A DNA stretch of 49,983 bases. It comes from Acidimicrobiaceae bacterium. GTDB lineage: Bacteria > Actinomycetota > Acidimicrobiia > Acidimicrobiales > UBA8592. Made by a program: the position numbers and the translations under genes. The notes beneath the pieces are model-generated. The model had not been told where the DNA came from and searched no databases. It saw only the letters and a program-made list of their open reading frames with translations. Positions 2,531-36,288 of the stretch are shown here, one piece after another. Where the stretch lies: NCBI GenBank assembly GCA_002720485.1, contig PBIQ01000039.1:1-49983 (forward strand). Reading direction: 5' to 3'. Each line of letters begins with the position of its first letter. Position 1 is the stretch's first letter.

Positions 2531-6880
<4,350 letters not shown>

Positions 6881-6884
<4 letters not shown>

Positions 6885-7402
6885 TCGTCGATTCGTTCAG
6901 TTTCAGGCAGCCGAACTAGTGGGATTTTTCGACTTGTCTTATCTTGATAGTCTGCATACCAAGCCCGGTCTGCACAGAGCTGGCCCCAAATCGTCTCATG
7001 TTCTTGCCCTTCAAGTATCTCGGGTTCAGACCAGAATTTTCCATCTTGGACCTGACAAAGGAGCTTTGGATTTGCTTCTTTGTCGCGAAGATTTAGATAC
7101 CAAGATGGGTTCTTGTCAGATCCGGCGAAGGAAGCGACGACGACCCGGATTCCATTGCGGTCTCGCCAAGTTGGAAGTGCCACCTTATGCTGATTTCCTG
7201 ATTTCCTTCCGACTGTTGTTAAAAGAACATGGTGCATTCCTGCTTGAACCCAAACCATGTCGTCATTAGTCATTTCCATCGCCTCAACGTGAACTTTGGT
7301 AAGGTCTACAATCTCCTCATGGCTCGGGGTATCCCAAACCTGTTCGACGAACTGGTCAGTTGATTCGGGATTTTCTGCCGTCACTTTTCTTCCTTCATTC
7401 AT
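6881..7402 (-). CDS. Ddn-like deazaflavin (F420)-dependent nitroreductase family protein
   Basis: About 173 residues, DUF385/Ddn family. Members use reduced coenzyme F420 for hydride transfer, or bind F420 or related cofactors. Key motifs are LLTTVGRKSG, the F420 phosphate-binding segment, and NPSWYLNLRDKEANP further on, both highly typical. An upstream in-frame start exists at 7432, but the ATG at 7402 overlaps the amidohydrolase stop by eight bases, the same overlap used repeatedly in this window, so I chose it. The gene is probably co-transcribed with the amidohydrolase. F420 use is characteristic of actinobacteria and supports the taxonomic call. The substrate is unknown. Confidence 0.88.
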
Positions 7403-8579
7403 CAAAATCCAGCCCGAAGAGGTTAATGGCATTACCGCGAGCTATCTTATAAATTTCGTCTTGTTGTAAGTGGCCAAATAACTCTTGAGCGACTGTTCGA
7501 GAATTCGGAAATGTTCCATCCTGATGCGGATAGTCAGTTTCAAATAGAACATTGTCAATCCCGATTTGATCGAGAAGTCCTATCCCTACGGTGTCCTTAA
7601 AAAAACAACTATGGATGTGATTGCGATAATAATAAGAAGGAGGTTTAGGGATTCTGTTTTCTCCTTGCGCCCATTGGTGTGTATGCCATGTATCGTCAGC
7701 GCGTTCAATGAAATACGGGATCCACCCAATCTGGCTTTCTGCGTAAAGAAGTTTCAAATTGGGAAATTGCTCAAATTTTCCAGAGAAGATCCAATCGATC
7801 ATTGATGCAGCACTATTGCAGACAATTAAATTTGCCGTCACAACAGTTGGGGCTTCTGGTGATGTTTGAACTGTTCGGGTTCCTGAACCGATATGCATGC
7901 AAATGACGGTTCCAGTAGCTTCGCAAGCCTGAAAGAATGGATCCCAATGGTTCCCATGGATCCCAGGCTGCCCAAGCCACGAAGGAAGTTCCGACCAGGC
8001 AACAGCTCTACAGCCTCTTTCTGCAACTCGGTATATTTCATCCGCAGCTAGCTTTGGGTCCCACAAGGGAACTATGCAAAGAGGGATTAGGCGACCTTCG
8101 CTATCGCCGCACCATTCATCAATCATCCAGTCGTTATATGCCTGCACACACAGTAGACCGAGTTCAAGGTCATCAGCTTCAGAAAAAAGCTGGCCGCAGA
8201 ATCGTGGGTAGTTTGGAAAGCAGAGTGAAGCTTCTACATGATTGATATCCATATCAACAAGCCTTGCCTTAGGGTCGTAGCATCCATCTGCGATATCGTC
8301 GTACGTTACTCCCTCCATGGTGACTTCTTCTGGGGGGATACCGGGGCAGGCGACCATCTGCTTAATTTGATAACGTTTGTTTTCGAAATGCCACCAGGCT
8401 GCCATTTTGTCTCCTGTGCCAGGAGTTTCAACCCACACGCCATCATCTAGCGCCATTTCACCCTGTGGGGCTATGACTATTTTAGGCGCTTTTTCTTTAT
8501 GTTTTAATGGGACTCGGTCTTGCCAAACGCTGGCAGGTTCTATTACATGGTCATCTGCGCTAATTATTTTTGGGATCAT
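7395..8579 (-). CDS. Amidohydrolase family protein (amidohydrolase_2, TIM-barrel metal-dependent hydrolase)
   Basis: A 394-residue cytoplasmic protein of the ACMSD-like branch of amidohydrolases. The N-terminal metal-site motif is SADDHVIEP, a central CMHIGSG supplies a further His, and FETDYPHQDGTFP near residue 340 carries the conserved Asp. Members decarboxylate or hydrolyse small aromatic or carboxylated compounds. The subgroup with DDHVIEP and DYPHQDGTFP is common in actinobacteria and often sits beside P450, nitroreductase or acyl-CoA genes, but its substrate is generally unknown. The gene overlaps the Ddn-like gene downstream by eight bases, so the two are likely an operon. A TAAGAT hexamer seven bases before the ATG suggests a leaderless transcript. 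Confidence 0.92.
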   Translation of the reverse strand: MIPKIISADDHVIEPASVWQDRVPLKHKEKAPKIVIAPQGEMALDDGVWVETPGTGDKMAAWWHFENKRYQIKQMVACPGIPPEEVTMEGVTYDDIADGCYDPKARLVDMDINHVEASLCFPNYPRFCGQLFSEADDLELGLLCVQAYNDWMIDEWCGDSEGRLIPLCIVPLWDPKLAADEIYRVAERGCRAVAWSELPSWLGQPGIHGNHWDPFFQACEATGTVICMHIGSGTRTVQTSPEAPTVVTANLIVCNSAASMIDWIFSGKFEQFPNLKLLYAESQIGWIPYFIERADDTWHTHQWAQGENRIPKPPSYYYRNHIHSCFFKDTVGIGLLDQIGIDNVLFETDYPHQDGTFPNSRTVAQELFGHLQQDEIYKIARGNAINLFGLDFDE

Positions 8580-8654: not shown

Positions 8655-10160
8655 CTATGTTCTAGTCCCCATTATGATACCGAAGCACATTTCATCGTCG
8701 CTTCCGTCGGCCCAAAGAACATATCTGGGTTCGATGTCTGGTGGCCTTAGGGAACGGTCCCATGTGCATTCCAGCCGGATGATGTCACTGGGCTTTATGC
8801 TTATTTCTTCAATCGGATCATAGTTAAACTGCCATTCGAAATCCCATTTAGGGATATCAAGGAGGATTCGCTCCTTAGGAGTATCTGGATTTAGAGTCAT
8901 TCTAAAAGTTGTACCGATACCATGCTGGTGGCCGAGAACGGAGACGATAGTCCCCGAGAATCTAGCAGGTTGATCACATGTTGAGGACGCATAACCGTCT
9001 GTCATATGTGAAAAATCTTCAGGTGAGTATCCGCAGAGATCTAGAATCATATCTGCTTGTACTCCTTGTCCGTCGTAGCTTGCTAGTCGATCAATGAGTG
9101 ATGCATCCCGGTCGCATAAGGGGCCAGTTTCGCTTGTCGAGCACGGAATTTCCGCTGGGGCGAAATATTGGATTAGCTCTACTGGGGTGATTGATTCGTC
9201 TGCACTCCATTTCGCGCGGAAGGAAGAATTATCTGCTGGGGCTTCTACATCGAAGTGATAATGGATTTGCATTACAAAAAAGTCGCCAGGGTTCATCTCT
9301 AGTCCATGCCCATGATGGTATTCAACCGCTCCGGTTCCAGGACCCCAAAGAGTGATCATTTGATTGAGCGTTCCTATTTGGTTTCCGCCAAGTCCAGTGC
9401 CTCCAAAGCAGCTCCAGCCTCCTTGCCCGTCAGAGAAGTTTTTTAGATTAGCGGCTTCTCTAAGTTCTTTTGGGACCCTATATCCGACAAGATGATGAAC
9501 CACTTCTGTTTGATCAGGAATAAATTCGTAGCCAATGAGATATTTGCGTTCAGTCAACTGGGGGTCATAAATGAAACAGCGGTATTCGTCGGTCTGCCCC
9601 TTCTCCCCGTCATAGTTTCCTATCGGGAAGATCTCTTGGTCGTAATCAACAAGATGGTGAGCTTCTTCGCTCGCAGTGATCTTGGTTGACGGGTCGATAT
9701 CAATACTGCCGCCGGATCTGGTCCACTGAATAACGGCATCTCTGTCTTCCTGGCTCAAACTCCAATCATGTTCAAATGGAACGCTCAAATTCGAAGCCGG
9801 CCAAGGCGGCATGATCTCTGCTTCAACAACTGCAGCAACTGCGAAAGCATTGGCGGATACATCCGAAGCCGTCCCGAGAAAGGCATGCGTCGTTCCGGGG
9901 GCATCTCCGATATGGCAGCGTGCACATGATGATTCAATTATTGGAAGAATTCTTTCACCAAAGCTAATGACTTCTGTTTGCTGGCTCTCCGGTGGTGTCT
10001 CATCGTGAGTATTTTCGGGTATCTGGTTTGTGCTTGTTTCAGAAGGCACCTCCGTATTTACTGATTCAGGTGTCGAAGTTTCTTCGCTTGATCCGCAGGA
10101 AAAAATTAAGGCAAAAAGAAACAGGAAAACAAATAGGTTGAGTTTTTTCCGTAAGGTCAT
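8655..10160 (-). CDS. Lipoprotein with cytochrome c site and PHM-like copper type II monooxygenase domain
   Basis: About 501 residues, exported. A basic N-terminus, a hydrophobic segment and the lipobox-like IFSC (Cys 22) predict a lipoprotein, followed by a Ser/Thr/Glu/Pro-rich linker to about residue 60. A single c-type haem site CARCH is at 79-83, with MPPW at 117-120 as the likely Met ligand. The C-terminal part resembles copper type II, ascorbate-dependent monooxygenases (peptidylglycine hydroxylating monooxygenase fold). HH at 222-223 and His 300 (MQIHYHF) would form the CuH site; HQH at 411-413 and Met 491 would form CuM. All expected copper ligands are present. The haem domain may feed electrons to the copper centre. 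An ATG ten codons upstream is possible, but the shorter start gives a normal signal peptide. Substrate unknown. Confidence 0.85.
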   Translation of the reverse strand: MTLRKKLNLFVFLFLFALIFSCGSSEETSTPESVNTEVPSETSTNQIPENTHDETPPESQQTEVISFGERILPIIESSCARCHIGDAPGTTHAFLGTASDVSANAFAVAAVVEAEIMPPWPASNLSVPFEHDWSLSQEDRDAVIQWTRSGGSIDIDPSTKITASEEAHHLVDYDQEIFPIGNYDGEKGQTDEYRCFIYDPQLTERKYLIGYEFIPDQTEVVHHLVGYRVPKELREAANLKNFSDGQGGWSCFGGTGLGGNQIGTLNQMITLWGPGTGAVEYHHGHGLEMNPGDFFVMQIHYHFDVEAPADNSSFRAKWSADESITPVELIQYFAPAEIPCSTSETGPLCDRDASLIDRLASYDGQGVQADMILDLCGYSPEDFSHMTDGYASSTCDQPARFSGTIVSVLGHQHGIGTTFRMTLNPDTPKERILLDIPKWDFEWQFNYDPIEEISIKPSDIIRLECTWDRSLRPPDIEPRYVLWADGSDDEMCFGIIMGTRT

Positions 10161-10221
10161 ATGTGATGAGTGTAGGACCACTTTATGCATTGGGGGCGTC
10201 AGAAGGATTGGCAGCCAGTAA

Positions 10222-10827
10222 TTAGTGCTCGGGTGACTTAATTGTGCGAGCTAACTCAAGGCCTATTCGAGCTATGCGCTGGAGTCTTTCTTCGCCCGTG
10301 AGTGTCTCTAGTTCTTTGAGCGTTACCCATCGCATATCTGTACTTTCGTGATTTCGCTTTATCACTGCTTCTCTCGGCGCTAGAAGAAGGTAGGTGAGGT
10401 CAAAGTGTAAATGCTCTTTTTCATCTCCAAACTCTGGAATTCTGTGTACATCACAATCTATTGCAGTGTCCCAAAGGGCTAGATTGTCGATTCCCGTCTC
10501 TTCGAAAGCCTCTCTATACGCGACATTGGACAAGTATCCTTCACCATCTGCATGGCCACCGGGCTGAAGCCAGATGCCAAGTTTTTTATGCAACATGACC
10601 AAAACCCGCTCAAATGAGCTTTCTACTATCATCGCTGATCCGGTCAGGTGACCCTCGACGCACGTTCGGTAGAGGGCATCATTATGGGTATTTATGAATT
10701 CGAGGATTTTCTCTCGCGCGAGATCTGATTCGGGTGAACTGGATATAGCGTTCCGAACCTCTTGCTTTGCTTGTGAGATAGATCCCCCCGATGGGAGACC
10801 GAAGGTAAAAGATGCGCCGGTTGACAT
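10222..10827 (-). CDS. Nudix hydrolase
   Basis: A 201-residue protein with a Nudix box beginning PGGHADGEG and ending REAFEETGI (around residues 98-122). The spacing between the first Glu and the RE pair is one residue longer than the textbook pattern, which is usual for the PGGHADG subgroup. Nudix enzymes cleave nucleoside-diphosphate-linked compounds using Mg2+ held by the REXXEE glutamates. About 85 residues precede the box, with a helical N-terminal extension. The gene lies directly downstream of the thioesterase gene, with about 20 bases between them, and may be part of the tail of the arg transcript. The substrate cannot be named. Confidence 0.9.
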   Translation of the reverse strand: MSTGASFTFGLPSGGSISQAKQEVRNAISSSPESDLAREKILEFINTHNDALYRTCVEGHLTGSAMIVESSFERVLVMLHKKLGIWLQPGGHADGEGYLSNVAYREAFEETGIDNLALWDTAIDCDVHRIPEFGDEKEHLHFDLTYLLLAPREAVIKRNHESTDMRWVTLKELETLTGEERLQRIARIGLELARTIKSPEH

Positions 10828-34527: not shown

Positions 34528-36288
34528 CTAAAACCTTACAGGATCGATAGCGACTCTAAGGCGTTTCTTTGGTCGCGGAATCTCCGAAATATTTTTCGAG
34601 AGGCTCTCGACACTAGAACACTTTACAAGCCAAGCCCCATCATTTGGCCCAAGAACCTCAAGGCCGCTCTGGACGTCCAGCTGCTCTATAAATTCGTCAG
34701 AACCTGGACCAGAAACCACGGCTATGTGGCCAAATGGAGGATATTTAGTGATCTCTCTCCTTTGCGACTCTTTATCGCTCCATACGTCAATACCACCATC
34801 AGAAAACACATCAAAGAAAGTATGGTTAGGTTTCCGAGTTTGCAAAATGACAGTACCGGAGCTCTGACTTTTCCGGTTGACCAATCGGAGTGCCCTAATT
34901 AATTTTGTTAATGCCTGCTCTTCGCAGCGGTACCGTTTTGCAAGGAGCTCTTGATCAAAATCAGCGAAGACAACCAAATCAGCCCAATCAACTCGATGCA
35001 ATACAGCTTCGGTCCCCAAATATATTCTTGACCTTACGAAATCAATTGAAGAAGTCTCCTTCGTAATCTGAGTCACTGGTTCTTTCATGAGTGCCTCCAA
35101 TTCCTCCCCTGCCCTCGAAACACCTATTCGAAGATTTTTCATACTCGTTGATAAGCAACCTGAACATATAACTGGTCGTGAATGTCCAAATCTCGTGCAT
35201 TCGATAAGACCTTCCTCTAATTGCAACATGGCGCTTCCACAGTCCGTACAAGTCACCAGTTCGTCACATTGCCTGCAGGCGAGAAGACGAGATCTTCCTG
35301 AACGGTTTAAAACAACAACAGACCTTCCAGCGGATTTCAAAGCATATACTGTTGACCTCGGCCACAACCCCCCAATAGCCGAATTATCTTCGCGAGGATC
35401 GGTGATTCGAATCCCAGACCATACTTCCCTTTTGTCGCTCTTCTGATCGCTAATTATTCGAGTTCGGTGACGCACTTCTACGGTTGGAATTGGGGAAGTG
35501 AAGACACATGGAAGGCCTTGTCTTTTTGCACGCTCTAGAACAACCTCTCTAGCATGCCAAGTCGGTGCTGCTTCTTCTTGGAATGATTCATCGTGTTCAT
35601 CAATCATCAAAATGGCTGCAAGATTTTTTATCGAAGCAAAGGCTGCGGATCGATTACCAACTATCGTCCCTCCAGAAACGCCAATAACCCAATCTTTACT
35701 ATATTCCCCCACGTTAACCCCCATACGTCTTAAACGATTAGCAACTACTCGCACATCTGAAGCTGATGGAAGCAAAATTAAAGCATTGCCAAGCGCTACT
35801 GCTGCACATATATACGGCCACCGATCTCCTGTTGGTGGGATACGAACAACCGATGGACCGCCTTCGAATGCGGCCACGACTAACTTATCTTTCGGTGTCT
35901 CGATTTGTTTTGATGGCCTACTCGGAGGGATCGCCTTAATCATTCTTTGAGGACTTGCTGTCTTCATAAAACGAGAAACGGGCCCTTGCCAACGGTTTGC
36001 TGCCCAACGAACTACCTCTACTACTTCCTTAGAAGGCCCGTGACTGCTGAATTTTTTCAGCGGCTGCAGCTCAACGGTAGTTTCGGTCTCTGGATTGATC
36101 TCACTAATCCAACCCCCTATCGAGCGATTGCGAAATTGAATCCTGACTAGTGACCCGACACTAAGTTGTGATGCCAATCCGGATTCAATCCAATCTTCGG
36201 GAACTAGGTAGTCAAATTCTTTTGATACTGCTGGAAGATCAGGAATAACTCGAACATTTTTGGGAACAACTCGCTTTTCGTTTTCCAT
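34528..36288 (-). CDS. priA: Primosomal protein PriA-like, without Walker A
   Basis: A 586-residue protein of the PriA family that helps restart stalled replication forks. The N-terminal 3'-DNA-end-binding domain is recognisable (residues about 15-110). The Walker A position carries PPTGDRWPYI rather than GxGKT, and the Walker B-like block reads LMIDEHDESF. A zinc-binding region (CRQC, CTDC, CSGC) is present around residue 340. Actinobacterial PriA proteins are known to lack ATPase motifs, so this is normal for the group but means helicase activity is unlikely. The gene follows metK, as in other actinobacteria. Confidence 0.88.
   Translation of the reverse strand: MENEKRVVPKNVRVIPDLPAVSKEFDYLVPEDWIESGLASQLSVGSLVRIQFRNRSIGGWISEINPETETTVELQPLKKFSSHGPSKEVVEVVRWAANRWQGPVSRFMKTASPQRMIKAIPPSRPSKQIETPKDKLVVAAFEGGPSVVRIPPTGDRWPYICAAVALGNALILLPSASDVRVVANRLRRMGVNVGEYSKDWVIGVSGGTIVGNRSAAFASIKNLAAILMIDEHDESFQEEAAPTWHAREVVLERAKRQGLPCVFTSPIPTVEVRHRTRIISDQKSDKREVWSGIRITDPREDNSAIGGLWPRSTVYALKSAGRSVVVLNRSGRSRLLACRQCDELVTCTDCGSAMLQLEEGLIECTRFGHSRPVICSGCLSTSMKNLRIGVSRAGEELEALMKEPVTQITKETSSIDFVRSRIYLGTEAVLHRVDWADLVVFADFDQELLAKRYRCEEQALTKLIRALRLVNRKSQSSGTVILQTRKPNHTFFDVFSDGGIDVWSDKESQRREITKYPPFGHIAVVSGPGSDEFIEQLDVQSGLEVLGPNDGAWLVKCSSVESLSKNISEIPRPKKRLRVAIDPVRF

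Follow-up and report, generated by a model that had tools for sequence, protein, structure and literature searches.

Described two-copper monooxygenases and the protein of the window

Peptidylglycine hydroxylating monooxygenase (PHM) and dopamine beta-hydroxylase (DBH) share a two-copper core of the kind that animals use in hormone making. In both enzymes, electrons from ascorbate pass via CuH and O2 is activated at CuM, as laid out in PMC6123673 and PMC4846438, where the reloading of the distant coppers and the exchange of electrons over 11 Å are debated. The class is described as widespread in eukaryotes in PMC8812541. DBH carries an extra domain before the core, DOMON; PMC4846438 draws a comparison between it and the haem-binding cytochrome domain of cellobiose dehydrogenase.

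The cellobiose dehydrogenase/LPMO system resembles the protein described here in that a haem domain passes electrons to a copper monooxygenase, an arrangement that we propose below. There, the cytochrome domain of cellobiose dehydrogenase feeds electrons to copper LPMOs; the system differs in consisting of separate proteins, in using haem b and in having a single copper site.

The window analysed here, a stretch of 49,983 nucleotides from an Acidimicrobiaceae bacterium (contig PBIQ01000039.1), encodes a protein (Table 1) that shares with PHM (PF01082 plus PF03712) the double jelly-roll core, the six copper ligands and the DEMC motif. It differs from PHM in being bacterial and probably a lipoprotein, in bearing a haem c segment in front of the core, in having further conserved cysteines (350, 359, 386 and 405) and different residues after the ligand Met, and in lacking a lyase domain. 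With DBH it shares the same core preceded by an extra domain. In the window protein that domain is, by its motifs, a c-type cytochrome; DBH depends on ascorbate. By its ligands and predicted fold, the window protein is a variant of the PHM/DBH monooxygenases.

Table 1. Features of the haem-copper gene and its immediate neighbours, in window coordinates
Feature	Position	Strand	Evidence or remark
Whole gene, 511 aa	8655..10190	-	Alternative start at 10160
Signal peptide and lipobox-like IFSC, Cys32 putative lipidated residue	10095..10160	-	Sequence; Met11 taken as start
Segment resembling a mono-haem c-type cytochrome, approximately residues 78-160	9711..9959	-	Pfam, alignment
CXXCH haem attachment motif, CARCH 89-93	9912..9926	-	Kept in 31/36
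MPPW 127-130; Met127, 38 residues beyond Cys89, probably provides the sixth haem ligand	9801..9812	-	Alignment
PHM/DBH-like two-copper core, residues 182-511	8658..9647	-	Pfam, profile against PDB, core model, structure comparison
His232-His233, CuH ligands	9492..9497	-	Invariant 36/36, profile alignment
His310, third CuH ligand (QIHYH)	9261..9263	-	Invariant 36/36, profile alignment
His421-x-His423 (HQH), CuM ligands	8922..8930	-	Invariant 36/36, profile alignment
Met501, CuM ligand (DEMC)	8688..8690	-	Invariant 36/36, profile alignment
Amidohydrolase (PF04909)	7395..8579	-	75 bases downstream, same strand; adjoins the gene in near relatives only
NUDIX protein	10222..10827	-	Upstream, same strand; adjoins the gene in near relatives only

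Copper core, haem segment and N-terminus

The 511-residue open frame is a real gene, present in one copy in its 1.49-Mb assembly (69% complete). Met11 corresponds to position 10160, the end given in a preliminary description of this DNA, and a start there is as possible as one at 10190. That description had named a CXXCH, an MPPW and the five His and one Met of two copper sites, all of which are present. An artefactual frame or a chance assembly of motifs was rejected on the basis of the invariance across 36 aligned proteins. The preliminary description had also called the product a lipoprotein. The lipobox-like I-F-S-C (C32) is indeed there, but Phe at position -2 is unusual; close relatives have ordinary lipoboxes (VASC, LVAC, LSSC, FASC and IASC), read from N-termini assigned mechanically as first starts (L026 is cut by the contig end).

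The copper ligands H232, H233, H310, H421, H423 and M501 are invariant in all 36 aligned proteins, as are Q308, D499, E500, C205, C261, C475 and C502, while the cysteines absent from PHM are each conserved in 35. In the window protein, PF01082 (Cu2_monooxygen) matches residues 200-312 at 30.4 bits, slightly above its cut-off of 30, and PF03712 (Cu2_monoox_C) matches residues 397-507 with 15.2 bits, below its cut-off of 23. Each of the two profiles matches 25 of the 36 proteins (E up to 0.01). No NCBIfam model was found for the window protein, and a phmmer search of the PDB with this single protein returned chance matches only, so that a profile was needed. The profile of the 36-protein alignment retrieved human DBH (1.9e-7) and PHM (2.6e-6) from the PDB. 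In these alignments, HH and the third His fall on the CuH residues of PHM, DEMC falls on the DEMC of PHM, and HxH falls on the CuM histidines of DBH (ligand numbers from PMC4846438). On DBH, the profile's DEMC lands on a later stretch, and the match of the Met ligand is therefore supported by PHM and not by DBH.

An AlphaFold2 model of the full-length protein, built from eight sequences, was poor (pLDDT 43), and that of residues 182-511, also from eight sequences, reached a pLDDT of 67 and a pTM of 0.73. With the core model as query, the first 31 Foldseek rows were all DBH or PHM chains. VIA-align superposed it on PHM (5wja) with a Z of 16.3 and an rmsd of 3.5 over 252 residues; DBH followed with a Z of 15.3, and the next fold was PNGase F with a Z of 8.4. 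A fold relation between the PHM/DBH type and PNGase F is described in PMC8812541. Structure prediction had been suggested as a check on whether the ligands assemble into two sites: the core model adopts a PHM fold and the ligand positions line up with those of PHM and DBH, so the PHM-like part of the preliminary reading is supported. Convergence of the ligands into two sites is thus predicted from alignment and fold.

The haem segment scores 14.9 bits with Cytochrome_CBB3, below the cut-off of 27, and this profile matches 22 of the 36 aligned proteins (E up to 0.01). CXXCH and MPP[WF] are both present in 31 proteins and both absent from the other five (L020-L024), a co-occurrence that bears out the c-type haem site claimed earlier. 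Where present, the Met lies 36-38 residues after the first Cys (31/36). Cytochromes that serve in electron transfer typically have a His/Met pair of this kind. Two Cytochrom_C_asm proteins, one in a frame of 667 aa and one in a frame of 295 aa, are encoded in the host genome, and covalent haem attachment outside the membrane is therefore feasible.

Unlike the stretch before the haem, which varies widely in length, the distance from CXXCH to HH is nearly constant: 141-152 residues (median 143) in all 31 haem-bearing aligned proteins. In a sample of the myxobacterial phylum it is 137-152 residues (29 of 29 proteins). This second range is subject to bias: the profile used to retrieve these proteins covers the haem part, and of several HH in one protein the one closest to 143 residues was chosen. 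Because the spacing is nearly fixed, the sequences suggest that the haem domain is docked at the copper core.

Distribution and variants of the family

Within the same order, 24 of the 99 genomes contain a relative. In a sample of the whole phylum, 10 of 198 genomes gave a match; seven belong to the same order, the host genome included, and the three from outside it consist of one partial core plus two genomes that match weakly, and in the haem part alone. Named contigs encoding proteins 58-82% identical to the window protein are Acidimicrobiales or Acidimicrobiaceae MAGs. The PHM/DBH class, described as widespread in eukaryotes, has a large bacterial branch. Among genomes sampled from the phylum to which the Myxococcales genome G290 belongs, 56 of 95 contain relatives. 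Thirty loci from that phylum (L071-L100; L071 and L037 refer to one gene) all encode CXXCH and HH, and 29 each encode HxHxxG and [DEQ]EMC. G290 itself has 37 matching pieces, with many PHM-like paralogues, several of them with haem. PF01082 was detected in none of 14 control genomes, and none of 19 candidate viral stretches encoded a relative. The plasmid search retrieved one chromosome-sized record, from Nonomuraea gerenzanensis, with 34.7% identity over residues 197-503, a match that does not extend to the haem part. No bacterial fusion of cytochrome c with PHM was found in a literature search whose coverage leaves out most subscription journals. The family is common among bacteria and, as far as that search reaches, apparently unstudied.

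The direct relatives, bacterial proteins joining cytochrome c to Cu2_monooxygenase, are 26-81% identical over the aligned length in Acidimicrobiales and Myxococcota. L033 was excluded from alignment A2 because it lies on the same contig as L002. Twelve of the 36 aligned proteins carry a YceI domain (PF04264) ahead of the haem (L008, L011-L015, L017-L019, L027, L029 and L030), each of 690 aa or more; the count derives from Pfam, with L012, L018 and L030 checked individually and the rest assigned from their sequence and their size of at least 690 aa. YceI-bearing proteins do not form one clade in a tree of 66 cores, and YceI was not detected in the host genome at its 69% completeness. Its position ahead of the haem is a hint that the partner may be a lipid or a quinol.

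The five haem-less proteins keep all copper ligands, and haem is therefore not needed in every member of the family. They form one clade (support 100/99) in the same tree, which does not settle gain against loss of haem because its root was placed at the midpoint.

Electron supply, substrate and genomic context

The window protein is probably an exported, membrane-anchored two-copper hydroxylase wired by its own haem. The haem would be reduced by a c-type cytochrome or a quinol-linked reductase of the respiratory chain and would hand single electrons to CuH; CuM would bind O2 beside the substrate, and a C-H bond would be hydroxylated as in PHM and DBH, without ascorbate. The preliminary description had already proposed this substitution of haem for ascorbate. 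It is plausible that the protein's own haem takes over the role of donor, and the fixed spacing between the two domains strengthens the case. Bacteria are not generally known to synthesise ascorbate. In a natural system of this kind, whose one-electron donor is coloured and covalently bound, electron entry at CuH could be tracked directly by stopped flow.

An active copper monooxygenase could also carry its haem as a redox, oxygen or ligand sensor, or as a dock for a partner, while some other small reductant supplies the electrons. The haem-less relatives speak for such an arrangement, since with all their ligands in place they must draw electrons elsewhere; no separate cytochrome was found for them, in that none of 26 frames, targets included, contains CXXCH at the two loci inspected (L056 and L057). 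Against it stand the near-fixed distance that separates the haem motif from the CuH motif in both phyla and the electron-transfer character of the His/Met pair, and we regard a non-donor haem as unlikely. Less probable again is a copper- and haem-containing redox protein that does not hydroxylate, for example an oxidase, a peroxidase-like protein or a copper-handling lipoprotein. It would agree with the lack of a substrate and of a conserved partner gene, and the many copies in one myxobacterial genome would be expected of binding proteins too, but the invariance of six catalytic-type ligands together with Q308, D499 and E500 goes beyond the needs of binding.

The substrate of the proposed haem-wired hydroxylase may, with weaker grounds than its electron path, be a small or membrane-associated organic molecule rather than a glycine-extended peptide. 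In PHM, an Asn and a Tyr after the ligand Met hold the peptide end. The aligned PHM chain has N and Y there; the window protein has F503 and I505, and across the family position 503 is F, Y or L and position 505 is variable. As these peptide-side residues are not kept, a peptidylglycine substrate appears unlikely from the alignment, and a bacterial peptidylglycine hydroxylase acting on glycine-ended peptides is highly improbable, even though fold and ligands are the same as in PHM. A more far-reaching possibility, which we advance only tentatively, is that these proteins constitute a large bacterial class of two-copper hydroxylases freed from ascorbate by a haem c of their own, fixed relative to CuH. 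In the YceI forms, an isoprenoid- or quinol-binding domain might then feed the enzyme or present its substrate, so that the membrane's quinone pool would be the direct source of electrons or an isoprenoid would be hydroxylated.

Comparison of genomic context had likewise been suggested beforehand. The order NUDIX, haem-copper gene, amidohydrolase is kept in the window and in the near relatives (L031-L036 and L039; L038 is the contig of L033). Beyond them, neither neighbour adjoins the gene at any of 16 loci (L037, L040-L050, L052, L054, L056 and L057), a count from which L051, L053 and L055 were left out, as the simple frame caller missed the gene there. No function was common to ten neighbouring proteins scanned in seven of the more distant loci: these include a hydrolase, an exporter, a LytR-type protein, an EXPERA protein, a fatty-acid hydroxylase, a haem peroxidase and a sulfatase, and three had no match. 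Conserved neighbours outside the near relatives thus yield no substrate clue and, since nothing recurs beside the gene there, the haem-copper gene behaves as a stand-alone unit.

Two further genes of the window deserve mention. A PriA-like protein of 586 aa is encoded at 34528-36288; the 3' DNA-binding domain is its sole Pfam match, so it is perhaps a helicase-dead form. At 5739-6884, a nitroreductase is fused to Polyketide_cyc2, and this gene adjoins one resembling F420H2-dependent quinone reductases.
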